A DNA stretch of 64,000 bases, from the NCBI GenBank assembly GCA_947588705.1, contig CANPYT010000006.1, positions 1 through 64,000 on the forward strand, written 5' to 3'. Both the position numbers and the translations under genes were made by a program. The notes beneath the pieces were generated by a model. It searched no databases, was not told where the DNA came from, and saw only the letters and a program-made list of their open reading frames with translations. Shown here one piece after another: positions 2,627 through 61,927 of this stretch. Position 1 is the stretch's first letter; each line of letters begins with the position of its first letter. This stretch comes from an uncultured Acetatifactor sp. (GTDB lineage Bacteria > Bacillota > Clostridia > Lachnospirales > Lachnospiraceae).

Positions 2627-3151
2627 TGTAGATAGCTCCCTCCTGTTTCAGAATTTAAATCTCATTCTTCCGGCGATATCTATCTTTTTTGATATACGGC
2701 ATGGGTATAGTGTTCTATGGCCATAATAATCTCAAAGCATTTCTCCGGGTGGAAGAAAAGGGCATCATCAGTAAAGAAGTCAAAATATTATAAACATCTG
2801 TAGAACATTGTATCGCGAAACGGAGCATTAGTCAACGCGCTGTCCGGCCCGGCTCTGAAAGGTAAAATCCGTTCCGCTTTGTTCTTATTTGCTCTTATGT
2901 GGCTTTAGATCGTGATTTTTCGGCATTCGCGTTTAACCTGCCTTTTCGGAAAGATATCCATATCCGCGCGGCGCACTGGCGTGCATTCCCATTTTGCGCA
3001 TTTTGCGCATTTCCATTTTTGGGGGGTAAATATATTGTCAGGTTTTAGGGGAATATGGTACAATTGGAAAGAATCACATTCAGGGCAGTTTATCTTTTGT
3101 ATAAGCTGCTCTTTTTGTTTCTGCCCTGAATCTGATACTTTCCTAAAGAAT
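2627..3151. other. AT-rich intergenic region with a large inverted repeat
   Basis: No gene seen in about 520 bases. ATTCAGGGCAG (3078-3088) and CTGCCCTGAAT (3121-3131) are an 11-bp inverted repeat around a 32-base loop. GCGCATTTT-like direct repeats lie at 2990-3015. The region leads into the promoter/operator of a truncated WYL regulator. Confidence 0.5.
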
Positions 3152-3181
3152 TATAATAAACATGACATACAGGTGTCGTGT
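3152..3181 (+). promoter_or_regulatory. Degraded copy of the WYL-regulator promoter and operator
   Basis: TATAAT (3152-3157) is followed by ACATGACAT-acag-GTGTCGTGT (3160-3181). The same arrangement, with a perfect palindrome, stands at 10543-10572 before an intact WYL regulator. Here the right arm has two changes. Confidence 0.6.
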
Positions 3182-3217
3182 TTTGTTTGCTATGATAGAA
3201 ACGGAACGTGAGAAGCG

Positions 3218-3253
3218 ATGAAGATAGACAGGCGGATCCGGAGGAGAATCTGA
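3218..3253 (+). pseudogene. 5' fragment of a WYL-type regulator
   Basis: ATG followed by KIDRRIR and a stop after 11 codons. The first five residues (MKIDR) and the upstream 70 bases match the start of the regulator at 10609, whose N-terminus is MKIDRLIG. The rest of the gene has been lost, leaving the promoter next to the GyrI-like gene. Confidence 0.55.
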
Positions 3254-3287
3254 TTGAGATCGGATCATTTGTGAGGGAGTGATGGAG

Positions 3288-3920
3288 ATGGCATTTGATT
3301 ACAAGAAAGAATATAAGGAATTTTATCTTCCGAAAGCGACGCCGGGTATTGTGACAGTTCCCAGGATGAACTTCCTGGCGGTACGTGGAAACGGGGATCC
3401 CAATGCGGAAGGCGGAGCATATAAGGAATCTATAGGTCTTTTGTATGGTATTGCGTTTACGATCAAGATGAGCAAGAAAGGCGATCATCGGATCGATGGG
3501 TACTTTGACTATGTAGTTCCGCCGTTGGAGGGTTTCTGGTGGCAGAATGGCGTTGCCGGGATTGATTATGCTAAAAAGGAAGAGCTTCAGTGGATCTCGC
3601 TTATCCGGCTGCCGGATTTTGTCACAGGAGAAGAGTTTGAGTGGGCGATAACGGAAGCGGCGGCTAAGAAGAAGCAGGATTTTTCCAAGGTGGAATTCAT
3701 GACCTATGACGAGGGGCTTTGCGTCCAGTGTATGCATATTGGAGCGTATGATGATGAGCCTGCGACAATAGGGGAAATGCATCGGTACATGGAAGAACAG
3801 GGGTATGTGCTGGATATCAAAAATGAGAGATACCACCATGAGATTTATCTGAGCGATGCGAGAAGGGTTGTTCCGGAGAAGCTTAGAACTGTGATCCGGC
3901 ATCCGGTCAGGAGGGCGTGA
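3288..3920 (+). CDS. GyrI-like small-molecule-binding protein
   Basis: About 210 residues with no DNA-binding domain. The opening FDYKKEYKEFYLPKATPGIVTVP and the segments NFLAVRGNGDPN and MTYDEGLCVQCMHIGAYDDEPAT are characteristic of stand-alone GyrI-like domain proteins (COG4832-like), the ligand-binding fold of the SOUL/BmrR C-terminal superfamily. The end, YHHEIYLSDARRV, is also typical. I chose ATG 3288 because GAGGGAG lies 8 bases upstream; GTG 3279 and ATG 3282 are too close to it. It sits directly behind a truncated WYL regulator, a pairing that suggests it was once co-regulated with that repressor. Ligand unknown. Confidence 0.75.
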   Translation: MAFDYKKEYKEFYLPKATPGIVTVPRMNFLAVRGNGDPNAEGGAYKESIGLLYGIAFTIKMSKKGDHRIDGYFDYVVPPLEGFWWQNGVAGIDYAKKEELQWISLIRLPDFVTGEEFEWAITEAAAKKKQDFSKVEFMTYDEGLCVQCMHIGAYDDEPATIGEMHRYMEEQGYVLDIKNERYHHEIYLSDARRVVPEKLRTVIRHPVRRA

Positions 3921-6899: not shown

Positions 6900-9134
6900 A
6901 TGGCGGGATACATATTAAAAATTGTGCTGGAGGATACCCATCCTCCCGTGTGGCGTCGCGTGGTCATACCAGAGAGGATTAGTTTTTACGAATTGCATCT
7001 TGTGATCCAATGCCTTTTTGGGTGGGAAAACTATCATTTGCATAGCTTCAGCATTCCGTCGGAAGATATTTTTATTGGGGAGGAAGAAAGCTTCGGTTTT
7101 GGAAATGAAAATTATCCAGAAGCGATGACGCCTGTAGAACGCTTTTTGCTGGATTATAGTTGGATTCGATATACTTACGATTTTGGAGATGACTGGAGCC
7201 ATAAGATCATCTTTGAAAAAATAGACGAAAGCTATAAGGAAAGGTATGCAACGCTGCTTAAGGCAAAAGGAGACAATTTCGAGGAAGATACGGGAGGCGT
7301 ATGGGAAAATGGCGGGGATGGAGGAGTCCGTCGGCCTTTTGATGTTCAGGCGGTAACAGAAAGCCTGAGAAAACATGTTTTCCCGATGCACGATGGAGCA
7401 TCTTCTCATAAACGCGAATTGTCTCCGATGGAGCGCAAAATAGAGAGCTGGAAGCAATTCTGTGAAAAGAGCTTTCGGCAGGCGGAAGAGCGAGAGGACG
7501 CAAAAGGCGGAAAAGCCAGAGAAGAAAAAGTTCAGAGCAAGGACAGCGGAGACGGTGGTTATACTCAGATGATCCTTCCATTTTTGAAACAAGAGGAGCT
7601 GGAAGAGCCGGATTATGTCCTGGAGATCGTTCCCGGTACTAAAAGCTGTGCTGAACTGCTGCGCACCCTGGGCTTGCAGGAGGCTAAGGACTATTGCAAA
7701 TACCTTCAGATCCCGTATTTGGACAGCTGGACCAAAACGCAGATGACAAGCGCGGTCGCGCAGGAACTATGTGCTCATCCGGAATATGTGCTATATGTTT
7801 TGCATGAAGAGGAATTCAGGGAATATCTGCATCTGGCAGGTCTGCCGAACGGCAGGCTGGAGAAACTGCCGGAAAGAGACACGCTCATCAAGGCTTTTGA
7901 AATTGGGTTGGCGGATATCCGGGTAGAAAAGAGGAAAGGAAAAACGAGGGCGACGCTCTCGTTTGCCACGGATATTTCTCCTTTGTTATGCTCTCTGCCT
8001 GCCGCCCTCCGAAAACAGACCTATCGGGATCTGAGACGTTTTTCGGAAAAACTGAAAACGCTTGTCCTTGCGTATGGCCTGATCGATTTTGACAGTCTGA
8101 GGGGCATGTTTCAGAGTGTTTATCGTACTGTGGTTGCACGAGAGGATTTCTATCGTTATGTATACTGGCACGGGAGATTCAACGATCTGCTGCAGACCCT
8201 TTACCGGACGAATTCAGGAAAGGCGTATGCGGCGGCGATGCAGTTGGACGCGGAATACATCATGGTGAGGATGCTGTTTTATTCGAAAGGTTTAGAGTAT
8301 GTTTCTTTTTCTGAAAAGGAACTGCGTGAAATGGCCGGCAATATTTCCGAGAGAAGCGCTTGGGTAGAAGTGCTGTATGGTATTCTGGTGTATAGACTTG
8401 GGCTCTCGGGAGAAACATCAGCCGTTATTCTTGAATTCATTTTCCTGAAAGTCATAGAGGGACGGCCTCTGTCTTATGTGATAGGGAGTATGTTGCATGT
8501 ATTGCCTGTGGAGCCGGAGCTTTCTGATCTCTGCGATTTGTGGTGCGCTGCGGCAGGTCTGCTGTTGGAGCTGGAGCTGCCGATGCTGAAGGGAAGAAGC
8601 CGTCAGCAGTACGCAGAGGAAAAAAGAATCTCAGCATGGGATATTGACATGGCTGAGGGGAATAAGAAGCCTGTTCATGCAAAAGAGGGCCATATGTATG
8701 AGTTTGATTGTTCCATTCAGGAGGCGATGTTCCAGGCTGTGGGTTTTGCGGATGAGCAGGATATAAAGCGGCTAGAAACGTATCTGCAAAAGGAAAAGAT
8801 CCATTCAGAGGAATTTCTTTATCTTCTGGCCGAAGCCGATATAATCGGCTGTCGGTTCCAGGATGCGGATTCTTTGATCTGTCAGCTCAGAAAGAGCTCG
8901 TCTCGCGGGAGAAGGGGAGCTGAGGTGCTTCAGGAAAGGCTGGAGACGGGTATTGATGTGATGGATGAGCCGGAGGAAGAGGATGATTTTTACAGGGAAG
9001 TCTGGCTGCCCCCGATTTCTCAGACCTATGTCAGGGAAAATCCTAAAATAGGCAGAAATGACCCCTGCCCATGCGGGTCAGGGAAAAAATACAAAAAATG
9101 CTGTGGAAGATCCCAAGAAAGTATTATGAGATGA
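6900..9134 (+). CDS. pRiA4b ORF-3-like protein with C-terminal SEC-C zinc motif
   Basis: 744 residues. The first 120 ([18 protein letters not shown]...[11 protein letters not shown]) are a pRiA4b ORF-3 domain, also called the IS1096 passenger TnpR-like domain. The long middle (about 200-690) is mostly helical and unrecognised. The last 30 residues carry [19 protein letters not shown], the SEC-C zinc-binding motif found in SecA and many accessory proteins. ATG 6900 is preferred because AAGGAAGG lies 11 bases before it; ATG 6867 has none. Function unknown. The gene sits between two copies of the Rpn tail and is probably mobile cargo. Confidence 0.8.
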
Positions 9135-9250
9135 CAAGTGTTTTCTTGCCCTATGCTATAAGCAGGATGCCTGCCCTATTTTAAGCATTTTGTGGTAAAA
9201 TATCATAGTGAAAATAAGAAGTGGTATGCTAGAGTAAAAAGGAGGAGCAC

Positions 9251-9676
9251 ATGATGAAGAAAAAATATACATTGAAGGTATTTCCGGCAGGGGCTGGAAG
9301 GGAGGTTTACCGGGTAATTGAAATATCGGGCGAGCATTCACTGGATGATTTATGTGGGGTAATTCTGTCGGCTTTTGGTTTTATAGATGAACATCTGTAT
9401 GAATTCTGCATGGATAACAGGATGTATAGTAAGTATAGTTATCAGTCGGATCCGGAAAATGGTGAACCTTCAACAAAAGTAAAACTTGATAAAATAGGTC
9501 TTGTGATGAAGCAAAAATTTTCTCTTCACTATGATTTTGGGGATGACTGGATGTTTACAATTACGGTACAAAACATAACAGAGACAGCAGAAAAGATTGC
9601 CCCTAATGTGATCAAAGAAAAAGGTTCCATAGAACAATATCCAGAGTGGGATGAAGAGGAAGACGATTACGAATAA
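9251..9676 (+). CDS. Single-domain pRiA4b ORF-3-like protein
   Basis: 141 residues formed by one pRiA4b domain: YTLKVFPAGAGREVYRVIEI at the start, then LDDLCGVILSAFGF and the signature LHYDFGDDWMFTITV. It lacks the long middle and SEC-C parts of the gene before it and ends in an acidic tail (EWDEEEDDYE). A strong RBS (AAAGGAGGAGCAC) precedes ATG 9251. Its TAA overlaps the ATG of the truncated Rpn tail (TAATG). Function unknown. Confidence 0.75.
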   Translation: MMKKKYTLKVFPAGAGREVYRVIEISGEHSLDDLCGVILSAFGFIDEHLYEFCMDNRMYSKYSYQSDPENGEPSTKVKLDKIGLVMKQKFSLHYDFGDDWMFTITVQNITETAEKIAPNVIKEKGSIEQYPEWDEEEDDYE

Positions 9677-9993
9677 TGCTTAGTACGGAGGAGGAACTGG
9701 ATATGTTGGAAATGGAAACGAAGAATCCGGGGATATTGGAAGCGATCAAAGAGGTCAGGGTCATGAGTCTTAGAAAGACGTTGCGAATGATATATGAGGC
9801 GAAAATGAAGGAGATTCGCGACAGAGACGCCAGAGAGGATTATGTGTGGAATGAGGGGCGTCGTGCAGGTGAAGACAGGCTCGGGCAGCTGCATGAAAAA
9901 CTTATCGAAGATCGGCGGCTCAAGGACCTGGAAAGATCTGTAAAGGACTCTAAGTATCGGGAGCGGCTTTATAAAGAGTATGGAATAAAGTAG
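9676..9993 (+). pseudogene. Truncated second Rpn copy (C-terminal tail only)
   Basis: The frame reproduces the last 100 residues of the Rpn nuclease at 5961 with few changes (TETK to MEMETK region; GRAQGLVEGEDRLRQ shortened to GRRAGEDRLGQ). The nuclease core is absent, so it cannot be catalytic. Its start is joined to the preceding stop, so it may still be translated as a free coiled-coil tail. Confidence 0.8.
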
Positions 9994-10031
9994 GCCGATG
10001 CCTGTGTTTTTCTTTTTCGGTGCCGGTATAC
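9683..10031 (+). repeat. Direct repeat, copy 2 (Rpn tail)
   Basis: Second copy of 6478-6838. Homology begins at GTACGGAGGAGG and ends at TGCCGGTATAC, after which the sequences part. Confidence 0.9.
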
Positions 10032-10150
10032 CCAGTGGGAACGTTAGGAAAAGTCTGCTGGATTTATAGAGGCGAAGGATGATATTAGCGAACAAAGCTT
10101 ATCGGTAAGTCGGGAGAGGGTTCTGCAACGGCTAACGGGGAGGGATTCCA

Positions 10151-10285
10151 GTGAGAGGATTGTTTCCCGAGGCAGTAAAGTCCGAAGCAGTAAAGTCCGA
10201 AACAGTAAAGTCCGAGGCAGGATGGATCAGCCTGGAGGATGCGAAGAAGATATATGCGGAGAAGATATATGCGGAGAAGATATAG
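10151..10285 (+). CDS. Possible 44-residue repeat peptide
   Basis: GTG start 7 bases after GGGGAGGG. The frame reads VRGLFPEAVKSEAVKSE, one more VKSE unit, then SLEDAKKIYAEKIYAEKI and TAG. Both repeat types have 15-base periods, so copy-number changes keep the frame. Good RBS but no recognisable family; could equally be a chance reading of a repeat. Confidence 0.3.
   Translation: MRGLFPEAVKSEAVKSETVKSEAGWISLEDAKKIYAEKIYAEKI
10169..10281 (+). repeat. Two 15-bp tandem repeats
   Basis: GAAGCAGTAAAGTCC-like units repeat about 3.5 times (10169-10223), then AAGATATATGCGGAG units about three times (10239-10281). Confidence 0.85.
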
Positions 10286-19258: not shown

Positions 19259-19410
19259 AGCGCACCATTCGCAAAGCCACGCTGCCGCGCTCTCCGGCGC
19301 TGTGCGCCTGCCTTTGCTCATCAAATGGCGCTCCTTCAGCCGCCTGATTTGATGGAAAATTCGTGTAGGCACGGTTTCCCATCAAATCAGGCGGCTGGCT
19401 GAACTGTTAC
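19259..19410. mobile_element. MITE-like element, left end degraded
   Basis: Shares with the next copy the CCATTCGCAAAGCC segment, TTTGCTCAT, ATGGCGCTCC and the right terminus GGCTGAACTGTTAC (19397-19410). The left terminus is eroded. Internally, CGCCTGATTTGATGG and its inverse CCATCAAATCAGGCG make a long hairpin. Confidence 0.7.
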
Positions 19411-26311: not shown

Positions 26312-26694
26312 ACAGGTTCCTCCGCGGGCCGCCGCTTATTTGCCCCACATTTTTGTCTCACATTTTGCCCTGCATTTTGCGGAGCCAAAGGGATATTTTG
26401 GCTTTGCACTGTAAATATTGCGTAAAATGTGCTCTGTATTTGTGTAAAGTTTACAAAAATAGAGTAGCATATTCGTAAATATTGTGCAAGTCATCAAGAG
26501 ATTTTGTGATGGAAAAGCAAAATACGCAATATTGGACGTGAAAAAAACAAGAAGCGCGTGGAATTTTCCTATAGTACCTGTTACCCTTAAGGCAGGGAAG
26601 GGAATCCCGGTTGATGTACATGAACCTAAGAACCTAAGAAACGGAACCAATGGATGTCCTTTTTGGACATGAGATCAAACTGAAGGAGGTTTTT
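26312..26694. other. Divergent control region between the AraC regulator and importer operon
   Basis: AT-rich. Contains the palindrome GTAAAGTTTAC (26443-26453), and TGTAAATATTGCG and CGTAAATATTGTG as a spaced direct repeat, possible AraC-family half-sites. No clear -35/-10 pair could be fixed. A strong SD (AAGGAGG) precedes the importer gene. Confidence 0.45.
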
Positions 26695-28737
26695 ATGAAG
26701 AAGAAAGCAAGTACAAGCAAAAAGCTTGCGGCAGTCCTGTTGACGGCGACGATGTGTATGTCCGCGCTGGCAGGCTGCGGCGGCACTCCAAAGGACGCTT
26801 CCGCCGGCGGGAACGCTGCGGAGGGTACTGAGAGCACCGGCGCAGGATCCGCCCAGGGTACGGATACCGCGGAAGGGTCGTCTTCCGCCGAAACCCAGGC
26901 AGGGGGGGCATCGGACTACAGCGAAGCGCCTATGCTGGCGGAGCTGGTGAGCGCGGGCTCGCTTCCCGCCGTGGAGGAGAGGATCCCTTCCGCGGAGGGC
27001 GTGATGGTGGAGAACGTAGAACAGGTCGGGAGCTACGGCGATGAAAATATCAAGATGGTGCTGACCGACGCCGGATGGGGAACCGGAAAGCCCATCGAGC
27101 AGGGCCTCTTCCGCTTTAACAGCGAGGGCGAGGTGGAGCCCAATGTGGCGAAGGGCTATGATGTCAACGACGACGCCACCGAGTACACCATCCATTTGAG
27201 GGAAGGCATGAAGTGGTCTGACGGCGTGGACTTTACTGCGGAAGATTGTGTCTTTTTCTATGACCACATGTGTGTGCCTGAGACCTTTGGCAAGTCTCTC
27301 TGGGATTGCTTTAAGGCATCTGACGGAAGCACTGCCACCTTTACAAAGGTAGACGATTATACCTTTACCGTTTCCTTTGATGTTCCGAAGCCCAATTTCA
27401 TCAATGAGCTGTGTATCAACGCAAAGTGGTGCTTCGCCCCCAAACATTACCATGAGACCATCCTTCCCGAGTTCATCGGCGAGGAGGCGGCTCAGGCAAA
27501 GGCTGAGGAGATGGGCTTCGCGGATGTGGCGACCATGGGCAAGGAGACCGGTTATTATTACTGGAATGTGCCCGGCGTACCTACCCTGAATCCCTGGGTC
27601 CTTTCCACGGAGCCCGGCAAGAGCGACGTGGAGGGAGACTACTTTGAGTTTGTCCGCAACCCTTATTATTGGAAGGTTGACCAGAACGGCCAGCAGCTTC
27701 CCTATGTCGATAAGATCGAATACACCAAGATCTCCGATGCCAGCCAGGTGCTGATCAAGACGCTGGCAGGGGAAGTTACGATTGCGGACGCCGGATGGAA
27801 CGACATTGAGACGCTGACGGAGAACGCGGACAGCGTCGGGTACCACATCGTACAGTGGCCCAGCAGCTCCTGGGGCCATGCGGCTTCTCAGCTGGAACTG
27901 AACCAGACCGCCCCCGACGAGGACTACAGGGCGCTGTTCCAGACCAGGGAATTCCGTCAGGCGCTGTCTATCGCTGTTGACCGCGATGAGTTCGCAAAGC
28001 TGATCTCCGACGGATGGCAGGCCGGACGTCAGGCATCCCCGGCGGAGGGCGCCCTTGGCTACAGCGAGGAGTGGGCGACCAAGTGGACGGAATATGACCC
28101 TGACGGCGCAAAGGCGCTTCTGGAGGGCCTGGGAATGGTAATGGGAAGCGATGGCTACTACGATCTGGCGGACGGCAAGGATTTTGTGCTGAATATCCTG
28201 AGCTATTCCGATTCCGGCGCGGACGACACCTATCAGGTGCTGAGCAATTACTGGAATGCCATCGGCATTAAGTCTACCTATAAGACCATGGATAAGGATA
28301 CCCTGAACAACAATATCGTCTCCAACGAATATGACGCGGTGCTGAGCCCTGTAGCGCCGGCGGAGACGGTAAGCCTGGGATTAAGGCCCGATACCCTGGT
28401 GCCCGTGAGGAATTACGCGGAGTGGTACGGCGAGGTCGGCACCTGGTACGCCAGCGGCGGAACAGAGGGGATCGCGCCTGAGGGCGATCTGCTGGAGCTC
28501 TGCAATCTGTATGACCAGCTGAAGGTTGCCGTAGGGGAGGAAGAGCGTTCCGAGATCATCGATAAGATGTACCAGCTCCATGAGGACAACATCTGGGTCA
28601 TCGGTTACATGGAGTCCGCGGCGATCCTGTTTTCCGTGGATAATGACTTTGTGAACTTCCCCGAGACAGAAATGTTCAGCGATGAATACCGCGGGCTTGG
28701 CATCGCGCACATCGACTGCTGCTTCTTTAAAAAGTAA
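26695..28737 (+). CDS. Lipoprotein substrate-binding protein, family 5 (Opp type)
   Basis: 680 residues. Signal and lipobox (MSALAGCGG), a Gly/Ser/Thr-rich linker to about 75, then an SBP_bac_5 domain (LREGMKWSDGVDFTAEDCVFFYD; REFRQALSIAVDRDEF). ATG 26695 follows AAGGAGG by 8 bases. Longer than usual (about 550). Family 5 proteins bind peptides or, in glycan loci such as this one, oligosaccharides; position next to nagAB, GH88/105 and GH38 suggests a glycan ligand. Confidence 0.92.
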   Translation: MKKKASTSKKLAAVLLTATMCMSALAGCGGTPKDASAGGNAAEGTESTGAGSAQGTDTAEGSSSAETQAGGASDYSEAPMLAELVSAGSLPAVEERIPSAEGVMVENVEQVGSYGDENIKMVLTDAGWGTGKPIEQGLFRFNSEGEVEPNVAKGYDVNDDATEYTIHLREGMKWSDGVDFTAEDCVFFYDHMCVPETFGKSLWDCFKASDGSTATFTKVDDYTFTVSFDVPKPNFINELCINAKWCFAPKHYHETILPEFIGEEAAQAKAEEMGFADVATMGKETGYYYWNVPGVPTLNPWVLSTEPGKSDVEGDYFEFVRNPYYWKVDQNGQQLPYVDKIEYTKISDASQVLIKTLAGEVTIADAGWNDIETLTENADSVGYHIVQWPSSSWGHAASQLELNQTAPDEDYRALFQTREFRQALSIAVDRDEFAKLISDGWQAGRQASPAEGALGYSEEWATKWTEYDPDGAKALLEGLGMVMGSDGYYDLADGKDFVLNILSYSDSGADDTYQVLSNYWNAIGIKSTYKTMDKDTLNNNIVSNEYDAVLSPVAPAETVSLGLRPDTLVPVRNYAEWYGEVGTWYASGGTEGIAPEGDLLELCNLYDQLKVAVGEEERSEIIDKMYQLHEDNIWVIGYMESAAILFSVDNDFVNFPETEMFSDEYRGLGIAHIDCCFFKK

Positions 28738-28849: not shown

Positions 28850-29848
28850 ATGTGGAAATATGTCGGAAAAAGGATCTTAATGTTCATTCCCACCATCCTC
28901 ATCATCTCTTTTGTGGTCTTTTTTATCATGCAGCTTCCGAAAGGCGATTATGTGAGCAGCTATATCGCCAGGATGCAGGCGGAGGGCGAGGTATTTACGC
29001 AGGAGGACATCGCCGCCCTGCGGGCGCAGTACGGTTTGGACAAAAACTGGGTGATGCGCTATTTCGACTGGGTATTCAAAATCATCACCAAGGGTGATTT
29101 CGGATATTCCTTTGCTTACGGAAGGCCCGTATGGAGTGTGATCATGGATCGGCTGGGGATCACCATCGCCGTGTCGCTGACGATCATGGCGTTTACCTAC
29201 CTGGTGTCCATACCGATCGGCATCTACAGCGCCCTGCATCAGTATTCGCCGGGGGATTATATTTTTACCGCCATCGGCTTTTTGGGAATGGCCACGCCAA
29301 ATTTCCTGCTGGCGATCATCCTGATGTATCTGTCGTTTACCTGGACGGGGGATCCCCTTTTGGGCCTGTTCTCCAATGAAATGCTCCAGGAGGGGATCCA
29401 TCTATACAACTTTGGGGAGTTCCTTCAGAGGATGATCATTCCCACGATCGTCATTGGCACGGCGGGTACCTGCGGGGTCATCCGTACTGTCCGGGCACAG
29501 ATGCTGGATGAGCTGTCCAGGCAGTATGCCCTGACGGCCCGGGCAAAGGGCGTGTCGGAGGCAACTATCGTCTATAAATATTGCCTCCGGGCGGCGCTGA
29601 ACCCGGTCGCAAGCGGACTGGCCGGGTCTCTTTCCAGTATTTTCTCCGGTTCTACTATTTCGGCGATCGTGATGAACCTGTCTATCCAGGGCCCTGTGCT
29701 CTATGAGGCGCTGAAGACGCAGGATACCTATCTTGCGGGCACCATTCTGATGACTCAGGCAGTGCTGGTGGTCATCGGTACGCTGCTGTCGGATATCCTG
29801 CTGGCATGGCTGGATCCCAGGATCCGTTTTGAGAGGAAGAGGAGTTAA
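28850..29848 (+). CDS. ABC importer permease, OppB/DppB type
   Basis: 332 residues, six transmembrane segments. N-terminus KYVGKRILMFIPTILIISFVVFF, a periplasmic-side loop with LRAQYGLDKNWVMRYFDW, and the EAA-type cytoplasmic loop (LDELSRQYALTARAKGVSE). Forms the channel with the next gene product. RBS AAAGGTGAG. Confidence 0.93.
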   Translation: MWKYVGKRILMFIPTILIISFVVFFIMQLPKGDYVSSYIARMQAEGEVFTQEDIAALRAQYGLDKNWVMRYFDWVFKIITKGDFGYSFAYGRPVWSVIMDRLGITIAVSLTIMAFTYLVSIPIGIYSALHQYSPGDYIFTAIGFLGMATPNFLLAIILMYLSFTWTGDPLLGLFSNEMLQEGIHLYNFGEFLQRMIIPTIVIGTAGTCGVIRTVRAQMLDELSRQYALTARAKGVSEATIVYKYCLRAALNPVASGLAGSLSSIFSGSTISAIVMNLSIQGPVLYEALKTQDTYLAGTILMTQAVLVVIGTLLSDILLAWLDPRIRFERKRS

Positions 29849-49860: not shown

Positions 49861-50724
49861 ATGTTTTGGACCAGACTGGCCAGCGGTATCGTGCTGGTGA
49901 TCGTTGCCCTGGGCGCTTTAAGTTTTGGCAATATTTTTCTGGCCCTGACCCTGTGGGCCCTTTCGCTTGTGGCGCTGCGGGAGCTGACAAAGGCGTTGAA
50001 GTGCGGAACTGACCCCAAAAGGCTGAACCTGCTGGAGATCCTGGGGATGGCGGGGGTTACGGCCTATTACCTTGCGCTGTTTTTCACGCGCAGCCATACG
50101 ATCCTGATCTTATGCATCGTGGGAGTCTTTATGCTGGAAATGCTGGCCTATGTAGTGACTTTTCCAAAATTCCGGGCGGAACAGGTGACGGCGGTGGTAT
50201 TCTCCTTCCTCTATGCGCCGGTCATGCTTTCCTTTATCTACCTGACGAGGGAGCAGGGGGCGGGGATCTACATAGTGTGGATGATCCTGATCAGCTCCTG
50301 GGGCTGATCAGGATCATCCACACTATGTAGATCCTGGGGCTGCGATACCTGCGCTTACGTGGTGGGAAAGCTGATCGGCAGAAAGAAGATCTTCCCGGTG
50401 CTCAGCCCCAAGAAATCCCTGGAGGGCTGTATCGGGGGGATCCTGGGCGCGGCTCTCCTGGGATGGCTCTACGGCCATTTCTATGTGGAGAACGCTTTTC
50501 CGGAAAAGAACGTGAGCCTGTTGATCGCGCTTATCTGCGGCGTGGGCGCCGTCATGAGCATGGTGGGGGACCTGGCGGCCTCCGCCATCAAACGGAACAG
50601 CGAGATCAAGGATTACGGCAGGCTGATCCCGGGGCACGGCGGGGTCATGGACCGCTTTGACAGCGTGATCGTCACGGCGCCGATGATCTACTTCCTGGCA
50701 TTGTTGCTCCTGGCGGTGGAATAA
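49861..50724 (+). pseudogene. cdsA: Phosphatidate cytidylyltransferase interrupted by an inverted self-copy
   Basis: The frame runs ISSWG, then TGA, then SGSSTLCRSWG, then CDTCAYVVGKLIGRKKIF and on to the end. CdsA normally reads ISSWGCDTCAY without a break. The extra 36 bases (50305-50340) are the reverse complement of the 30 bases at 50264-50293 plus a repeated CCTGGGGC. Without them the protein is 275 residues, normal for CdsA, with the signature GRLIPGHGGVMDRFDS intact. Because CdsA is essential, I suspect a recent mutation in part of the population, an assembly fault, or readthrough. Start ATG 49861. Confidence 0.85.
50264..50334. repeat. 30-bp perfect inverted repeat with 11-base loop in cdsA
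   Basis: Left arm 50264-50293, loop GCTCCTGGGGC, right arm 50305-50334. The following CCTGGGGC repeats the loop end, the footprint of a template switch during replication. Confidence 0.95.
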
Positions 50725-54078: not shown

Positions 54079-54101
54079 AGACACGGATGGGAGGGATCAG
54101 G

Positions 54102-54986
54102 ATGGAACAGGCCGCCGCAGATGAGGACAGGAGAGGGCGGAATCAGACAGAAAAGAGACTGACGGACAAGGCGGAAGGCCGGGCGGAGGCCGCGGCCCTG
54201 CGGGAACAGGGATGGGATGTGGTGCGCCTGCTGGGGCAGGGGGCGTTCTCCCGGGTGTTTCTGGTAAAGGGCGGCGCGGCGGGGGAGCTTTTGGCCTGCA
54301 AGGTATCGCGGCGGCGGGAATTGCTCTGCCGGGAGGGGAGGCTTTTGGAAAAGACTTCCCATCCCCTGTTTCCGGCCTTCGGGAACCTGTGGGAGAGGGG
54401 AGACAGAGCCTTTCTCCTTATGGAGTATGTCCCGGGGGAATGCCTGGAGGCGCACCTGAGGCGGCGCGGCAGATTTTCCGAGGCACAGGCCGCGAGGGTA
54501 GGGATGGAGCTTGCGGAAGGGCTGCGCTTTTTGCATCAGATGCCGGAACCCGTCCTGTTTCGGGATGTGAAACCGGCCAATATCATGATACGCCAGGACG
54601 GGAGGGCGAAGCTACTGGATATGGGCTGCGCGTGGGAGCCGGGGCGTCCGGCGGACGCTGTGGCCGGAACGCCGGGCTATGGGGCGCCGGAGCAGTTCAT
54701 ATCCGGCGCCGTTTTGTCCTGCGCCTGCGATGTGTACGGATTAGGGCGCGTCCTGGAGGCCATGGCCGGAAAAGGATGCGGGGGAGGGCTTGGCAGGTTG
54801 ATAGCTTCCTGCACGGCGCCGGATCCGGGAAGGCGGCCGCCCGACATGCAGGGGGTCATGGCAGCCCTGGCGCCGCTGTGCCGGAAGGGCAAAAAGGGAG
54901 AAGGCGTTTCGGGGAAAGGGGGATCCCGGGGAGACTCTGCGGTCTGCCTGAAAAATATTTGGGAGAGCAGGTATAAAAATACTTGA
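54102..54986 (+). CDS. Soluble Ser/Thr protein kinase
   Basis: 294 residues. GQGAFSRVF is the glycine loop, Lys67 in LLACKVSRR the ATP lysine, [11 protein letters not shown] the catalytic loop (Phe for His in HRD; Asp155, Asn160), LLDMGCAW the DFG-equivalent (DMG), and [12 protein letters not shown] the activation segment. It has no membrane helix or PASTA domain, unlike PrkC. The tail after 255 is basic and Gly-rich. ATG 54102 has GGGAGGG 7 bases upstream. Likely active; targets unknown; paired with the PP2C-like gene. Confidence 0.85.
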
Positions 54987-56272: not shown

Positions 56273-58084
56273 ATGCTTTACCATGTGGGGAACATGCTTT
56301 TTAAACTGCGGGAAAAGATGGGGGTGTCCCAGGAATGGCTTGGAAGGGGCCTGACGGACAAGGCGGAGCTGTCGCGCCTGGAAAACGGCGGGAAAGAGGC
56401 GGACCGCTTTCTGATAGCGGCTTTATTCCAAAGGCTTGGGAAATCCGCCGACAAATTTGAAATGGCCGTGTCAGGGGAGGAATACCGTCTGCTCCTGCTG
56501 CACAGCCTGGTACTGGAGAAGCTGACGGAAAAGGATTATGCCATGGCGGCCTTATTTCTGGAAGAATACCAGGCCCAGCCGGATAGCGGGAAGCCCCTGC
56601 ACAGGCAGTTTGTGCTGGAGCAGAAAGCGCTTTTGGATTACTGCGTAGGGGGAGACGCGGAGCTCTGCCGCCAGGGCCTGGTCCAAGCGCTGGAAGTCAC
56701 TTTCCCGGAATGGAGAGAGGAAGGGTGGAGAGGGTACAGCCTGTGCACACAGGAGGTTCAGATCCTGCTCCTGTTATTATGGGTGACGGCGGAGGCAGGG
56801 GAGGGAAAGCCTGTCCGGAGGAGGCTGGAGGAACTCCTGTCCTACCTGTCCGAGAAATATACGGACCAGGAAGCGCTTGCGGAGGTCTATCCCCAGTGCG
56901 CGTGGCTCTTGGCCAGGGAATGCCTCCGGGGAGCGGATTACGGGCAGGCGCAGGATGCCTGCAGCCGGGGATTAAAGTGCCTTGCGGCGAGCGGAACGAG
57001 TACCCTGCTCGACCGGCTGTCGGAAATCCAGAAAACCTGCTTGGAGAAACTGGGACAGGACGAAAAGATACCCCAGGCGGAACAGGTACGCCAGGCAGCC
57101 CTGTTTCTTTATGAGATAACGGGAAGTGACGTGCCGGACGACATGACAAATTTGCTGGCTGCCGGCTGCAGGAACGAATTATTGATCGACAGGGAGCTCT
57201 TGAAAGATTTAAGGCTGTCCCAGGGCATGTCTCAGCAGGAACTCAGCGACGGCATATGCAGCTGGGAGACATTGTCCAGGATCGAAAGCGGCAGGCGGAA
57301 GCCTAACCGGAAAAATCTCTATAAAATGTACGAAAGGCTGAGCCTGAGCCGGGAAAACTATTATAGTTATGTCCTGGCAGACGATTATGAGGTATATGAA
57401 AAGGCGTACCTTAATTTTGACAAGAATAAAAGCGTGGAGGAGAGAGAAGCCATTCTGAAAGACCTTGAAAAGAGTCTGGACGTCACGGTACCGATAAATA
57501 AGCAGTTCTTAGAAGGGAACAGGCTGCTGTTAGCCATCCGGAAAAAAGAGATAGAGGAAGATCTGGCGATTGAGAAATTAAGTGAAGTCCTGCGGTACAC
57601 CATGAAGGACTATGACGGAACAGTGTACAGGGCTCCTTTTCGGGAGGAGTGTGTCCTCCTGAACCGGATCGCGCTGTGTTTAAAGCATTCCGGCCGGGTG
57701 GAGGAGGCAATTCAGATCTGGAAACAGATATTGGATAAGTATAATGAAAGCGCGGTGGCAGACCAGGACCATTTTACAAACAGGGTGTTGATCGGCATTA
57801 ATTACACTGGCGCCCTGGAGGTGTGCGGTTTTCTGGAAGAAGCGGAAAAACAGGCGCTCTCCGGTATCCGGCTGTCCCTTAGAGGGCAGAAAGGGGATGT
57901 GGCAGGGAGCATACTGGCGAACCTGTCCTGTGTCTATGAAAAAAGCCAGATGCCGGGGGCGGAGGAGCTATGTCAGAAAAGCTTTTGGTACAGCTATGTA
58001 CTGCTGCGCTTTTACGGCCAGGAAAAAGATGCCCGGCTCGTGAAAAATTATTATGATAAGAAATTTGGCGATCCGCTTATATAA
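56273..58084 (+). CDS. Double-HTH, helical-repeat regulator (RRNPP-like)
   Basis: 603 residues. An N-terminal XRE HTH (VGNMLFKLREKMGVSQEWLG...AELSRLENG, 1-55) is followed by helical repeats (about 65-290). A second HTH (LLKDLRLSQGMSQQELSDG...WETLSRIESGRRKPN, about 305-355) is followed by another helical region to the end (TPR-like pairs such as LNRIALCLKHSGRVEEAIQIWKQIL, given here in part: GRVEEAIQIWKQIL). Each half resembles a PlcR/Rgg-type peptide-sensing regulator, so this looks like an internal duplication. GGGAGGTG supports ATG 56273. It is followed at once by a convergent tiny ORF and then the exporter operon, likely targets. Confidence 0.8.
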   Translation: MLYHVGNMLFKLREKMGVSQEWLGRGLTDKAELSRLENGGKEADRFLIAALFQRLGKSADKFEMAVSGEEYRLLLLHSLVLEKLTEKDYAMAALFLEEYQAQPDSGKPLHRQFVLEQKALLDYCVGGDAELCRQGLVQALEVTFPEWREEGWRGYSLCTQEVQILLLLLWVTAEAGEGKPVRRRLEELLSYLSEKYTDQEALAEVYPQCAWLLARECLRGADYGQAQDACSRGLKCLAASGTSTLLDRLSEIQKTCLEKLGQDEKIPQAEQVRQAALFLYEITGSDVPDDMTNLLAAGCRNELLIDRELLKDLRLSQGMSQQELSDGICSWETLSRIESGRRKPNRKNLYKMYERLSLSRENYYSYVLADDYEVYEKAYLNFDKNKSVEEREAILKDLEKSLDVTVPINKQFLEGNRLLLAIRKKEIEEDLAIEKLSEVLRYTMKDYDGTVYRAPFREECVLLNRIALCLKHSGRVEEAIQIWKQILDKYNESAVADQDHFTNRVLIGINYTGALEVCGFLEEAEKQALSGIRLSLRGQKGDVAGSILANLSCVYEKSQMPGAEELCQKSFWYSYVLLRFYGQEKDARLVKNYYDKKFGDPLI

Positions 58085-58183
58085 TCAAAACTCGATGGAG
58101 TCGTCCTCTACCACATCGCAAGTTGTTAATGTATTTTCCAAAGGTGCTTTTTGAGAGGACATGCCTGTCCAAGGTGATAGCAT
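58085..58183 (-). CDS. Candidate signalling peptide, 25 or 32 residues
   Basis: A short minus-strand frame starting at ATG 58183 or ATG 58162 and ending in CDVVEDDSIEF. Its stop directly abuts the regulator's stop. A TATAAT with 17-bp spacing to TGTACA lies upstream on the same strand, at the edge of the palindrome. The acidic end followed by IEF recalls mature PapR (LPFEF), the ligand of PlcR, but there is no signal peptide, so export would need the neighbouring ABC transporter. The single Cys could be modified. Weak RBS and small size keep confidence low. Confidence 0.4.
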   Translation of the reverse strand: MLSPWTGMSSQKAPLENTLTTCDVVEDDSIEF

Positions 58184-58200
58184 TATCTACATATTGAGAG

Positions 58201-58253
58201 AAATCCCTGTAGATCAAAACGCTATCCGCTCATTATACAGTGTGCAGGGATTT
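58201..58253. repeat. 9-bp inverted repeat around the peptide promoter -10
   Basis: AAATCCCTG (58201-58209) and CAGGGATTT (58245-58253). The right arm is in the -35/-10 spacer of the leftward promoter, the left arm just after its start point. Confidence 0.8.
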
Positions 58254-58336
58254 ATGTACATGACGTTTTTTGAAACTTTTTTCTAAAAAATGTTTCAAAA
58301 AACGTCATGTACAAACGCAATAAACTGTTGTAAGAT
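58232..58336. promoter_or_regulatory. Divergent promoters sharing one large palindrome
   Basis: TGTACATGACGTTTTTTGAA (start of the 22-bp left arm, 58255-58276) is exactly mirrored at 58292-58313. The outer six bases of each arm, TGTACA, act as -35: leftward, 17 bp to TATAAT (58237-58232); rightward, 17 bp to TAAGAT (58331-58336). The 15-base centre is AT-only apart from one C. Confidence 0.75.
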
Positions 58337-58370
58337 ATAAAAGTCGCAGAAAACGGGATGGAATTAAAAA

Positions 58371-58396
58371 CAAGCTGAATCATGCCTCACAGCTTG
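58371..58396 (+). other. 26-base stem-loop motif in the exporter leader
   Basis: CAAGCT-14 bases-AGCTTG, with TCATG in the loop. The sequence at 10479-10504 has the same stem, spacing and TCATG, 20 of 26 bases equal. It ends 25 bases before the exporter start codon. Confidence 0.5.
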
Positions 58397-58421
58397 ATTT
58401 GGCTAGAAGGAGAAACGTGAT

Positions 58422-60182
58422 ATGAAAAAAAAGAAATCTCCCGGCGTATGGCTGGGGATCAGGAGAGTGTTCCGACTCTCGCCGGGGCTGGCAGCGGCAT
58501 TTTGCTGTATCAAGGTGCTTTACGGTATCCTGCCGGCGGTTTATGTGGTGCTGTACGGCAAGTTTATCGACGATATCCTGGCCTTTTACGGAGGCGGGAT
58601 AGCCATGAGCCAGGTGGCGTACAGCGCGGTCCCGCTGTTCCTGGTGATGCTGTTCCAGTATGCCGGAAACAGTCTCGACGGCTATATCCAGCTGAAATGC
58701 AATCTTCAGGTGTCACAGAAGGAAGCGACGGCGTTCATGGATAAGTGCGTGAAGATTCCTTATGGCCTGACGGAGGACAGCGGATTTCGGGATCTGATGT
58801 ACAGCGTATCCCAGGGGAAGAATCAGTATGTTTTTGGCAGCCTGGTCTATATGGCCGGCTTTTTGGAGCTTATGCTGAACATGCTGGGCATCCTGCTCGT
58901 GATCTTCCGGTATTCCTGGCAAAGTGCGCTGGTGGTGCTGGTCTGCTTTATCCCGATCATGCTGGTGTCCTCCCGCGGAGGGAAAGAGGATTACGAGGCT
59001 TTTGAGCGGTATCAGGCGGCGGAGCGGCGCCTTAACAGTTATGAGGAGGCGCTGACCTCGCAGCAGTACGCGGATGACAGGATGGTTTTTCGCTATACGA
59101 AATTTTTCGTGGAAAAATGGAAGAAGAAATTTGACGAGGCCACCGATATTTTCCTGGGGGCCAGGCGCAAAAGCTTTACTTCCGTAAAGATCACCAGCGT
59201 ACTGATCGAGGTGATCCTGCTGTTTGTGGCGGGCGTTTTGATCTATATCACGCTTCACGGACGTATGACGATGGGCGTGTGTACCATGCTGATCACACAG
59301 CTTTTGTCTATGGCCAACCGTCTGACCTGGAATCTGTATATGTATCTCCATGAGCTGTTTTCCTGCCGCAGTTATATGGCTTCCTATGCCAAGTTTTACG
59401 CAGCCCCGGAGATGCCCGCGAAGGAAAAGTCCGTGGACAGGGTGGAAACCATAGAGTTTAGGAACGTCAGCTTCCGCTATGGGGAGGATCTGCCGTATGT
59501 GCTGAAAGATCTTTCCTTCCGGCTGGATGCGGATAAGTCCTATTCGCTGGTGGGAGAAAACGGCGCGGGAAAGACAACGGTCATGAAGCTGCTCTCGGGC
59601 ATGTACGATTCCTACGAGGGGAGCATAAAGATCAACGGCACGGAGCTGCGGGAACTGTCAAACCTGAACCAGGTGTTCTCCGTTATGTTCCAGGATTACG
59701 CGCGTTATGAGCTGAGCCTGCGCGACAATCTGTTTTTGGGGAGCCCGTCGGACGACGGCAGGGCGAAGGAGCTGATGGAGACGCTGAAGCTGGATCTGTC
59801 GCAGCAGCTGGGCCAGGAGGGCCTGGACGCCCAGGTGGGCCGGCTGGCAGGCGAAAACCGGGATTTTTCGGGAGGGCAGTGGCAGCGTATCGCCATGGCA
59901 CGGGCTCTGGTGCATCCGGGCAGCTTTTTCCTGCTGGATGAGCCGACTGCGGCGCTGGACCCTTCCGCGGAGAGCGCGATCTACCGGGATTTCCAGAAGC
60001 TGCTCGAGGGAAGGCCGGCTCTTTTGATCACCCACAGGCTGGGGGCGGCCAGGCTTTCGGATGAGATCCTGGTATTGCAGGAAGGCAGCCTGCGGGAGCG
60101 GGGAACCCATGAGGAACTTTTGGAACAGGGCGGCATCTATGCCCAGATGTTTGAAGGGCAGAAAGGATGGTACGAGGATTGA
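58422..60182 (+). CDS. ABC exporter half-transporter (first subunit)
   Basis: 586 residues: six-helix membrane domain (about 1-320) plus ATPase. Walker A GENGAGKTT (about 378), signature DFSGGQWQRIAMARAL, Walker B FFLLDEPTAALD, H-loop LLITHRLGAARL. Type IV exporter fold, as in peptide, lipid and drug exporters; no C39 peptidase domain. AGAAGGAG precedes ATG 58422. Overlaps the second subunit, so the two probably form a heterodimer. Confidence 0.92.
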   Translation: MKKKKSPGVWLGIRRVFRLSPGLAAAFCCIKVLYGILPAVYVVLYGKFIDDILAFYGGGIAMSQVAYSAVPLFLVMLFQYAGNSLDGYIQLKCNLQVSQKEATAFMDKCVKIPYGLTEDSGFRDLMYSVSQGKNQYVFGSLVYMAGFLELMLNMLGILLVIFRYSWQSALVVLVCFIPIMLVSSRGGKEDYEAFERYQAAERRLNSYEEALTSQQYADDRMVFRYTKFFVEKWKKKFDEATDIFLGARRKSFTSVKITSVLIEVILLFVAGVLIYITLHGRMTMGVCTMLITQLLSMANRLTWNLYMYLHELFSCRSYMASYAKFYAAPEMPAKEKSVDRVETIEFRNVSFRYGEDLPYVLKDLSFRLDADKSYSLVGENGAGKTTVMKLLSGMYDSYEGSIKINGTELRELSNLNQVFSVMFQDYARYELSLRDNLFLGSPSDDGRAKELMETLKLDLSQQLGQEGLDAQVGRLAGENRDFSGGQWQRIAMARALVHPGSFFLLDEPTAALDPSAESAIYRDFQKLLEGRPALLITHRLGAARLSDEILVLQEGSLRERGTHEELLEQGGIYAQMFEGQKGWYED

Positions 60183-61927
60183 AAGGGAAATTTCGATATA
60201 TTTGGGAAGAAATGGGCCGGATGCTGCGGGTCTCAAAGGGATGTGCGGCAGCGGTGATCGCAGTACATATCGTGTCGGCCCTGGCCGGGCTGGGTTATAC
60301 GGTGGCCCTGAACCGACTTTTTGAGGCGATCTTAGGCGGGAGCTGGGGCAGCGGTGTCCTGGCGGCGTTTTTTGGCCTGTGCGCCATGCTGCTCACCCGG
60401 GATATTTTAAACGGTGTCAGCAATTACATGACTTCCTGGCAGGAGATGAAGGTACAGAAGGGCTATATGGTCTCCTTTTTTGAGAAAGTGGACGGACTGG
60501 GGGCGGAGCGCCTGCAGGATCCGAAGGTCCTGGACATGGTGAACAGCGCCAGGAACGGCAGGGAAGCCAGCGCGGAATTTCTGATCCATGCGGAACTGAC
60601 GGCAGGGTATTATTTTCTGTATTTTGTGTTCCTGATGGTCTATCTGTACAGGATGCACTGGCTTTTGGCGGTGGTGATCCTGGCGGCTTATATTCCTTCC
60701 GTGTTTACTTATCGGCAGAAGCATAAGGTCAGTATCCAGACGGACGAAGAGGCGGCCCGTTACAGGAGGACGCGGGAGGCATGTTTTGACTATGTGACGG
60801 ATCCGAAATTTTTTAAGGAGAGCCGTTTCTGGGGTGCGGAGAAAATGCTGCAGGGCAGGTACCAGGAGGCGGGAGACCGGTTCCGGAGCTGTTATCTGCG
60901 CAGCTTCCGGCGTCAGAATCTTCGTGATCTGGTGTGCAGCCTGTTTTACGTCGTGGGATTCGGCGTTGTGCTGGCCGCCCTGTGCTATCTGGTGCGTATC
61001 CAGGCGGTATCCGGCGCGGAGGTGGCTACCGTGCTGACCGTTGTGCTGGCGATATACAGCGAGATGGATGAGCTGATGAACTTCCATATAGCGGGCATGG
61101 CTGAGAATCTGAGCGGCCTCTATTACATGAACAAACTGCGGGAGACAGGGAGCGAAGACGGGGAGGAGACCCTGGATGGAAAAGGATACCAGGTGGAGCT
61201 GAGAGGGGTCAGCTTTTCCTATCCTGACGCGGAACAGCCGGCCCTGCAGGGGATCGACCTGAATATCCGCAACGGAGAGCTGATCGCCATAGTAGGGGAG
61301 AACGGTTCCGGCAAGACGACGCTGTCTAAGCTTTTGTGCGGCCTGTACAGGCCCTCCGAAGGAACTATGGCCATCAACGGCAGGAACAGGATGCGTCTGA
61401 AGAGAGACACGGTACTAAAGCGGGTATCGGCGGTGTTCCAGAATGTGAACCGTTATCCGCTGACGATCCGGGAGAATCTATGCCTGGCCGACGGGTCGAT
61501 GGAGGAAGCGGATATGAAGCGGCTGGCGGATTTCGCGGATATTTCGGGAAAGGCGGCGCAGGAGGAACAGGGGTATGACACGCTGCTTTCCAGGGAGTTT
61601 GGGGGAGTGGACTGGTCCGGCGGCCTGTGGCAGCGGCTTGCTATCGCGCGGGCGGCGGGAAAGAAATGTGATTTCTTTGTCTTTGACGAGCCTACGGCGG
61701 CCATCGACCCGCTGGAAGAGCTGGATATCATGAAGCGCATGGCGCAGTTTGCCGAGGGGAAGAGCGCCGTGCTGGTGACCCACAGGATCGGGGCCGCCCG
61801 GCTGGCTGACCGGATCCTGGTCATGGCCGGCGGCAGGATCTGCGAGACGGGCACCCATGAGGAGCTTCTGGCCCTCGGCGGCGAATATGCCCGGATGTAC
61901 CAGGAGCAGAAACAGTGGTATGAATGA
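60167..61927 (+). CDS. ABC exporter half-transporter (second subunit)
   Basis: 586 residues, same layout as the previous gene. Walker A GENGSGKTT (about 377), signature VDWSGGLWQRLAIARA, Walker B FFVFDEPTAAIDP, H-loop VLVTHRIGAARL. ATG 60167 lies inside the end of the first subunit gene. In Walker B the Glu is kept in both subunits, so both ATP sites could be active. Proposed cargo: the peptide encoded at 58085-58183. Confidence 0.92.
   Translation: MVRGLKGKFRYIWEEMGRMLRVSKGCAAAVIAVHIVSALAGLGYTVALNRLFEAILGGSWGSGVLAAFFGLCAMLLTRDILNGVSNYMTSWQEMKVQKGYMVSFFEKVDGLGAERLQDPKVLDMVNSARNGREASAEFLIHAELTAGYYFLYFVFLMVYLYRMHWLLAVVILAAYIPSVFTYRQKHKVSIQTDEEAARYRRTREACFDYVTDPKFFKESRFWGAEKMLQGRYQEAGDRFRSCYLRSFRRQNLRDLVCSLFYVVGFGVVLAALCYLVRIQAVSGAEVATVLTVVLAIYSEMDELMNFHIAGMAENLSGLYYMNKLRETGSEDGEETLDGKGYQVELRGVSFSYPDAEQPALQGIDLNIRNGELIAIVGENGSGKTTLSKLLCGLYRPSEGTMAINGRNRMRLKRDTVLKRVSAVFQNVNRYPLTIRENLCLADGSMEEADMKRLADFADISGKAAQEEQGYDTLLSREFGGVDWSGGLWQRLAIARAAGKKCDFFVFDEPTAAIDPLEELDIMKRMAQFAEGKSAVLVTHRIGAARLADRILVMAGGRICETGTHEELLALGGEYARMYQEQKQWYE

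Follow-up and report, generated by a model that had tools for sequence, protein, structure and literature searches.

The operator of PlcR, the receptor of the PlcR-PapR system of the Bacillus cereus group, is palindromic, a feature shared by the locus described here. This locus (positions 56273-61927) lies in a 64,000-nucleotide stretch of DNA, hereafter the window, that comprises positions 1 to 64,000 of contig CANPYT010000006.1 (assembly GCA_947588705.1) from an uncultured Acetatifactor sp. of the Lachnospiraceae. It contains a gene for a regulator resembling RRNPP receptors, a short open reading frame (ORF), a palindrome and two ATP-binding cassette (ABC) exporter genes. Validated receptors, Qsr/Qsp of Clostridium acetobutylicum included, are 285-473 residues long according to the available part of PMC10075063. 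A second survey, in the portion of its text at hand, lists several Firmicutes genera with RRNPPA genes, of which just one lies outside Bacilli, and a table in the accessible part of PMC10626739 gives Streptococcus alone under RRNPP receptor. The word stem "Lachno" is absent from the main text of PMC10075063, and the open-licence literature (without bioRxiv) yielded no description of RRNPP signalling in Lachnospiraceae or of an RRNPP protein with two helix-turn-helix (HTH) domains. The large group of doubled receptors reported here has apparently not been described before.

We consider it probable that the locus is a peptide-sensing switch of the PlcR/RRNPP type in which a single chain joins two complete receptor modules, the window copy having an exporter as output and a propeptide gene without a leader. 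All parts named in the original prediction, which was made from the DNA letters and their ORFs (the 603-residue regulator, the short ORF, the palindrome and the ABC pair), are present in the places it assigned to them. The stop codon of the short ORF directly abuts that of the regulator on the opposite strand, and the palindrome, 59 bp in length, lies between the short ORF and the exporter pair. The features are as follows (TPR, tetratricopeptide repeat).

56273..58084, + strand: double-module regulator, HTH1-TPR1-HTH2-TPR2, 603 residues (Pfam, hhalign, AlphaFold2).
56285..56443, + strand: HTH1, residues ~5-57 (Pfam HTH_3; helices within residues 4-54; match to Rgg2 at profile positions 1-101).
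56474..57142, + strand: TPR-like repeat 1, residues ~68-290 (leucine at the positions of N464 and N510 of the C half).
57185..57343, + strand: HTH2, residues ~305-357 (Pfam HTH_3; the stronger covariation with the operator of the two HTHs).
57374..58066, + strand: TPR repeat 2, residues ~368-598 (PlcR-like; N409, N464, N510).
58085..58183, - strand: short ORF, 32 codons (25 from an internal ATG), acidic tail TCDVVEDDSIEF; putative propeptide homologue without a signal sequence.
58232..58260, - strand: promoter-like site into the short ORF, TGTACA-17-TATAAT (-35 inside a palindrome arm; TATAAT at 58237-58232).
58255..58313, no strand: putative palindromic operator, class A, arms ACATGACGTTTTTTGAAA (28-nt arms, 96% complementary, 3-nt loop).
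58308..58336, + strand: promoter-like site into the exporter genes, TGTACA (58308-58313)-17-TAAGAT (58331-58336) (weak -10, 4/6).
58422..60182, + strand: ABC exporter half-transporter A, 586 residues (putative regulated output).
60167..61927, + strand: ABC exporter half-transporter B, 586 residues (overlap with half A of 16 nt).

The proposed doubling of an RRNPP-like regulator is borne out by the comparison of its N and C halves, which align with an hhalign probability of 99.9 over 270 columns, and by a Pfam scan that gave two HTH_3 stretches (RNPP_C/TPR matches were weak and below cut-off). The AlphaFold2 model of the 603-residue chain has a mean predicted local distance difference test score of 91.9 and a predicted template modelling score of 0.90. 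Both the model and the matches to PDB entries display the C-terminal TPR or TPR-like solenoid of RRNPP(A) receptors. PlcR is the best match of the C half in sequence as well as in fold, and is the closest of the solved structures. The HTH and TPR arrangement is PlcR-like, but the module is duplicated, whereas receptors of the PlcR subfamily have a single one; likewise, one-module receptors of about 250-500 residues are the criterion in the available text of PMC10075063. Because length and module number both differ, the regulator is a variant rather than a classical RRNPP(A) member, and it is predicted to work as an RRNPP/PlcR switch all the same.

The C-terminal solenoid carries three asparagines that are conserved in a 27-row alignment of closer relatives: N409 in 27 of 27, N464 in 24 and N510 in 27. 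N464 and N510 align with PlcR Asn159 and Asn201, which we take to be contacts of PapR, and the N510-Asn201 pairing recurs in a second alignment. The N half has leucine at the equivalents of N464 and N510 in 25/27 and 16/27 of the closer relatives, respectively. An asparagine that contacts the peptide backbone is Asn225 of RapJ, according to the accessible part of PMC3601965.

Surroundings of relatives were picked by regulator similarity alone, and 591 other genes on the same stretches served as controls. A propeptide gene was called by a rule requiring a convergent ATG ORF of 25-110 codons ending at -60 to +150 nt relative to the regulator's stop codon, a basic start, a hydrophobic stretch and a Shine-Dalgarno sequence. 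The set of 77 loci left out four duplicates, two loci with less than 300 nt downstream, L038-L046 (short copies of longer loci) and, as shorter than 500 residues, L024 (a contig-edge fragment), the single-module proteins of L036 and L037 and a 295-residue frame in L060; L113 (no open frame) and L115 were outside the analysis. RRNPP(A) receptors are expected to have an adjacent small propeptide (10-100 residues) with a Sec leader. By the rule used here, a propeptide with a Sec-type leader is found at 57 of the 77 loci, the window itself having none, versus 10 of the 591 control genes. Two of the ten positive controls are family regulators themselves, and the control rate is therefore overstated. 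The propeptide stop falls at -3 from the regulator stop in 32 of 58 cases, and the median length is 54 residues. The last 15 residues are net negative in 46 of the 58 tails; this acidity alone is kept of the acidic-IEF ending that the original prediction had expected to be conserved. The proposed peptide gene at the 3' end of the regulator thus holds for most of the relatives examined, and fails in the window insofar as the ORF there is leaderless.

Taken by itself, the window's short ORF is within chance expectation, as 6 of 43 window genes have a convergent ATG ORF of 25-60 codons ending within 10 nt of their stop. Inspection by eye of all three frames from the promoter to the tail revealed no hydrophobic leader, and a good Shine-Dalgarno sequence is lacking. 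The ORF is hydrophilic with a tail charge of -5, unlike the short hydrophobic pheromones (SHPs) of Rgg/SHP systems. It is made credible by its tail, PLENTLTTCDVVEDD, which aligns with the tail PGEGDVSTCDLIEQD of the L087 propeptide with a score of 44; this propeptide belongs to the closest regulator in a scan of named genomes (48% identity). None of 2000 shuffles scored as high, and 6 of 2000 did so against the best of the 58 tails, while the two other window frames score just 12 and 16 against the L087 tail. Judged by this similarity, the ORF appears to be a true propeptide homologue that is leaderless. Since it has no leader, the window locus resembles a receptor without its own secreted signal.

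The window palindrome scores 25, whereas 400 dinucleotide shuffles of the intergenic sequence around it reach 11 at best. An exact match to its core pattern occurs once in the 2.88-Mb genome (91.7% complete). Single arms with at most two mismatches number 25, hardly more than the 20 of the reversed control, and on these counts a regulon elsewhere in the genome was rejected. Palindromes scoring at least 14 occur within 450 nt downstream at 46 of the 77 loci and 35 of the 591 controls, and propeptide and palindrome (at least 12) occur jointly at 37 loci versus a single control. A further window palindrome (19337-19397, score 20) is dissimilar to the operator.

Promoter geometry was counted for 46 of 57 palindromes and operator class for 45, the rest having no recognised edge motif; the edge of one of the 46 was set wrongly (span 4), and classes, edges and motifs were chosen once the sequences had been inspected. 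On the propeptide side, 38 of 46 palindromes have a TATAAT-like box (at least 5/6) at 19-21 nt beyond the edge (shuffled flanks, mean 3.6, maximum 8); on the target side, 20 have one at the same distance (shuffled, mean 2.8, maximum 10), and 18 have one on each side. In the window, the arm ends TGTACA fill both -35 positions, and the propeptide-side -10 box is at 20 nt, as in the relatives. Because -10 boxes flank the palindrome on both sides, one putative operator appears to sit between the divergent promoters of signal and output. This geometry, together with the covariation described below, favors the shared operator of peptide and target promoters that had been proposed at the outset.

When the outer 18 nt of each arm are compared, the operators of the 45 loci fall into class A, CCATGACGTTTT.GGAAA (27 loci), class B, CAAGGGACAGAGTTGT (11 loci), class C, CCATAACAAAA.TGGCAC (5 loci), and class D, CAATGCCCAAA..TGTCA (2 loci). 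Once HTH1 and the two TPR regions are controlled for, operator similarity follows HTH2 similarity with a partial r of 0.59 (0/400 permutations as high); in dereplicated sets of 34 and 26 loci, the value is 0.55 and 0.59, respectively. The corresponding values for HTH1 are 0.09-0.15, with 31, 16 and 69 of 400 permutations as high. Within class A, both HTHs contribute (partial r 0.61 and 0.37, 0/400 each). As operator sequence tracks HTH2 far more than HTH1, we read HTH2 as the main specific operator contact and HTH1 as a secondary one.

The family was searched by profile in a sample of 299 same-family genomes and a phylum sample of 398 genomes, the best four and best three candidates per genome being scored, respectively. 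Of the 299 same-family genomes, 18 gave matches at E<=1e-60, and for 16 of the 18, among them the window's own genome, a match covers both modules. The phylum sample gave one genome of 398 at E<=1e-50, which is the window's own. In the genus, with single-module relatives counted too, a match at E<=1e-5 is present in 35 of 101 genomes; surroundings were fetched for part of these matches. The scan of named genomes yielded 29 loci; one, L115, amounts to just a 53-residue match in a Planctomycetaceae metagenome-assembled genome (MAG). Named hosts include Roseburia hominis An869, Anaerocolumna aminovalerica, Velocimicrobium porci and many Lachnospiraceae MAGs; a few further records are labelled just Clostridia, Eubacteriales or Clostridiales, and two genera were confirmed as Lachnospiraceae. 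The majority of relatives belong to Lachnospiraceae.

A tree of 32 of the 73 doubles, split into halves, together with 12 single-module relatives, places the N halves in one clade (100/95) and the C halves in another (93/91). As each set of halves forms its own clade, a single old fusion followed by long divergence would be the simplest history for the 32 doubles. Two doubles with a propeptide each lie within 17 kb in L050 (2491-4362 and 10786-12630), the second being followed by a small cysteine-containing peptide ORF and two ABC genes. A single-module relative of 314 residues in L037 (G000:C8, 7407-8351), directly followed by an ABC-exporter-like gene (8521-10227, by eye), has neither propeptide nor palindrome by rule, and the same genome also has a double.

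Phage and plasmid origins were considered and rejected: a single-protein scan of viral contigs, whose short exact patterns can detect just close relatives, gave no relative, and none was found among plasmids. Four matches in "phages" are faecal records of 4.1-6.5 kb, and both of those fetched are marked UNVERIFIED. The best of them, L150 (MT837868.1), is a "Bacteriophage sp." record with a 627-residue double at 1876-3759; its neighbours look chromosomal or bacterial by eye, and neither propeptide nor palindrome is present by rule. This record is probably not phage.

Outputs differ among the relatives and include radical S-adenosylmethionine (SAM) peptide clusters, ABC exporters and secreted proteins. 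Among 85 target-side proteins, hand-picked from 177 listed, ABC_tran was found 20 times, ABC_membrane 10, Radical_SAM 7 and FtsX 3. Several are radical-SAM maturases of the type associated with ribosomally synthesized and post-translationally modified peptides (RiPPs) by family resemblance, none being above an NCBIfam equivalog cut-off, and one target protein is ThiF-like. The target sides of L056 and L072 have tandem repeats of similar secreted proteins or lipoproteins past the propeptide region. In the window, the exporter pair is followed by a trigger-factor-like frame (by eye) starting at 62051, and a protein with Ser/Thr-kinase-like motifs (by eye) is encoded upstream of the regulator at 54087-54986.

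The module duplication, the predicted fold, the arrangement of operator and promoters, the covariation, the conservation of propeptides and the absence of a window leader are results of computation, whereas peptide binding, peptide import, the direction of regulation and the exporter as output are inferred. The C-terminal module would be the one that both senses and reads DNA, its HTH reading the 18-nt palindrome arms and its TPR groove forming the likely peptide pocket, while the diverged N-terminal module probably supplies a further DNA contact, a surface for assembly, or both. The position of the operator between divergent promoters would place the propeptide gene and the output operon under joint control. 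In most of the relatives examined, the propeptide would be made with a Sec-type leader, presumably trimmed outside the cell and re-imported by an oligopeptide permease, and its binding to the receptor would close an autoregulatory loop. PF00496 proteins are present in the genome; in the window, an oligopeptide-binding protein of this family (26650-28737) and a permease-like frame (28850-29848, by eye) form a candidate import route. The window's propeptide gene would have kept its promoter and acidic tail and lost its leader, with a two-gene ABC exporter as output. Control of the window copy by a secreted signal of its own has probably been lost.

Several points weigh against this switch or narrow its reach. 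The original prediction was to fall if homologous loci were devoid of a conserved short ORF or palindrome; the family passes this check, with exceptions at 20 of the 77 loci for a propeptide by rule and at 31 for a palindrome scoring at least 14. Leaders were called by a hydrophobicity and charge rule rather than by SignalP, and the HTH covariation tests handle relatedness solely via TPR identity. The target-side -10 box of the window (TAAGAT) is weak. The missing leader could be an assembly error, which is conceivable because the contig has a repeat resembling a fold-back artefact at 50264-50334, a perfect inverted repeat of ~32 bp within a frame (49861-50307) that resembles cdsA by eye and ends early there. 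The asparagine triad is weaker in a quick alignment of all 79 loci (N409 in 67, N464 in 41, N510 in 46), and N510 shows no association with propeptide possession (37/62 with versus 9/17 without, p 0.78), so its use as a marker of propeptide presence was dropped. Because the pattern fades over the 79 loci and N510 ignores propeptide presence, the pocket argument appears strong solely for the window's branch.

The loci lacking an intact propeptide bear on a different explanation, that of an orphan receptor which has lost its own signal, senses the peptides of neighbours and turns on the exporter, for example in self-protection from a neighbour's toxic peptide. Of the 5 loci whose first target gene encodes an ABC exporter, 4 have no intact propeptide, versus 10 of 61 others (Fisher p 0.006), an association that is small and post hoc and depends on a motif rule that left L049 unflagged, though its first target is an ABC ATPase by eye; four loci were entered by hand as having an intact propeptide in this comparison and in that of the asparagines. 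Six of the 17 propeptide-less loci (the window, listed as WIN, with L089, L098, L106, L108 and L112) keep N409, N464 and N510, including 3 of the 4 with an ABC exporter first, and the same switch stands beside radical-SAM peptide maturases in several relatives. However, the remaining 11 lack the full triad, 28 of the 62 propeptide loci have it, L098 and L106 are near-copies of one another, and N510 does not distinguish loci that have a propeptide from those that have none. An orphan receptor of this kind is, on balance, unlikely, while listening to others' peptides would be possible for the window's branch. Comparably doubtful is a broader conjecture, in which Lachnospiraceae have double-headed quorum receptors, one module reading both signal and operator and the fused second being accessory, and some copies, the window's included, have given up their own secreted signal while retaining operator and receptor pocket, listen to neighbours' pheromones and answer with an exporter rather than with a peptide product.

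According to the original prediction, the leaderless short peptide is exported by the adjacent ABC pair, re-enters and alters the regulator's grip on the palindrome. The window ORF has indeed no Sec leader yet keeps a promoter and a conserved tail, the exporter genes lie on the far side of the operator, leaderless pheromones exist (PMC10518010) and PptAB exports Rgg peptides (PMC7564271), as far as the accessible parts of these papers go. However, most relatives' propeptides (57/77) carry their own leaders, and on that comparison the ABC pair is better read as a regulated output than as a pheromone exporter. The genes in the exporter's place vary and the majority are not exporters, and the window ORF, besides its poor Shine-Dalgarno sequence, differs from SHPs in its hydrophilic and acidic character. 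L089, L112 and L027, which likewise have ABC targets, are without a recognisable intact peptide. Conservation of half A together with the regulator was also rejected, as no such regulator was seen at the 11 nearest other half-A loci in the genus (flanks up to 1.5 kb), in a search made for half A but not for half B. That the ABC pair exports the peptide is thus quite improbable.

A double-HTH protein that responds to a small molecule or drug pumped out by the ABC pair, rather than to a peptide, would fit the exporter being the sole intact output in the window, and other ligands are possible for TPR proteins. The family-wide coupling to convergent, leader-bearing propeptides and the proximity to PlcR in fold and sequence make such a sensor very doubtful. 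The frequency of bare convergent ORFs (6/43 genes) might suggest that the short ORF is noise and that the palindrome serves as a terminator or RNA hairpin. This reading is hardly credible given the constant 20-nt distance of the divergent -10 boxes from either edge, the covariation of the arms with HTH2, the tail homology to L087, the lack of any Rfam family match and the AT-rich arms.

Lachnospiraceae are major gut bacteria, and the peptide-sensing switch proposed here would yield dozens of testable sets of pheromone, receptor and operator with their output genes, radical-SAM peptide clusters included. A natural fusion of two modules, with recognition mainly in the second HTH, would also offer a clean case for the evolution of operator specificity.

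The 21 novel RRNPP subfamilies of RRNPP_detector resemble the present family in that a small Sec-exported propeptide adjoins a TPR receptor, but the default receptor window of 250-500 residues, in the available text of PMC10075063, contrasts with doubles of 590-720 residues here. Because this range ends at 500 residues, RRNPP_detector would pass over the doubles, and a length cut-off in a search tool can conceal a whole family. The Qsr/Qsp systems are likewise clostridial RRNPP regulators beside leader-bearing peptide precursors; in them, the peptide gene follows the regulator, and the accessible part of PMC7376267 names an HTH motif and TPR domains with no mention of a doubled module. Rgg/SHP and ComR/ComS of streptococci share the HTH and TPR-like fold, the neighbouring peptide gene and, in the portion of PMC13361665 at hand, a link to radical-SAM peptides (RaS-RiPPs). 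They differ in having a single module and short hydrophobic pheromones, and in export by PptAB (PMC7564271, available part) rather than through the Sec leaders of the relatives here. The PlcR-PapR system has a small propeptide gene beside the receptor, as in the relatives, and PapR7 (ADLPFEF), as given in the source text available, is also acidic and aromatic at its end. In contrast to the single-module, 293-residue chain of PlcR, the regulators described here have two modules, 18-nt operator arms and a convergent propeptide gene that would share its operator with the output, of which the window retains a leaderless remnant.

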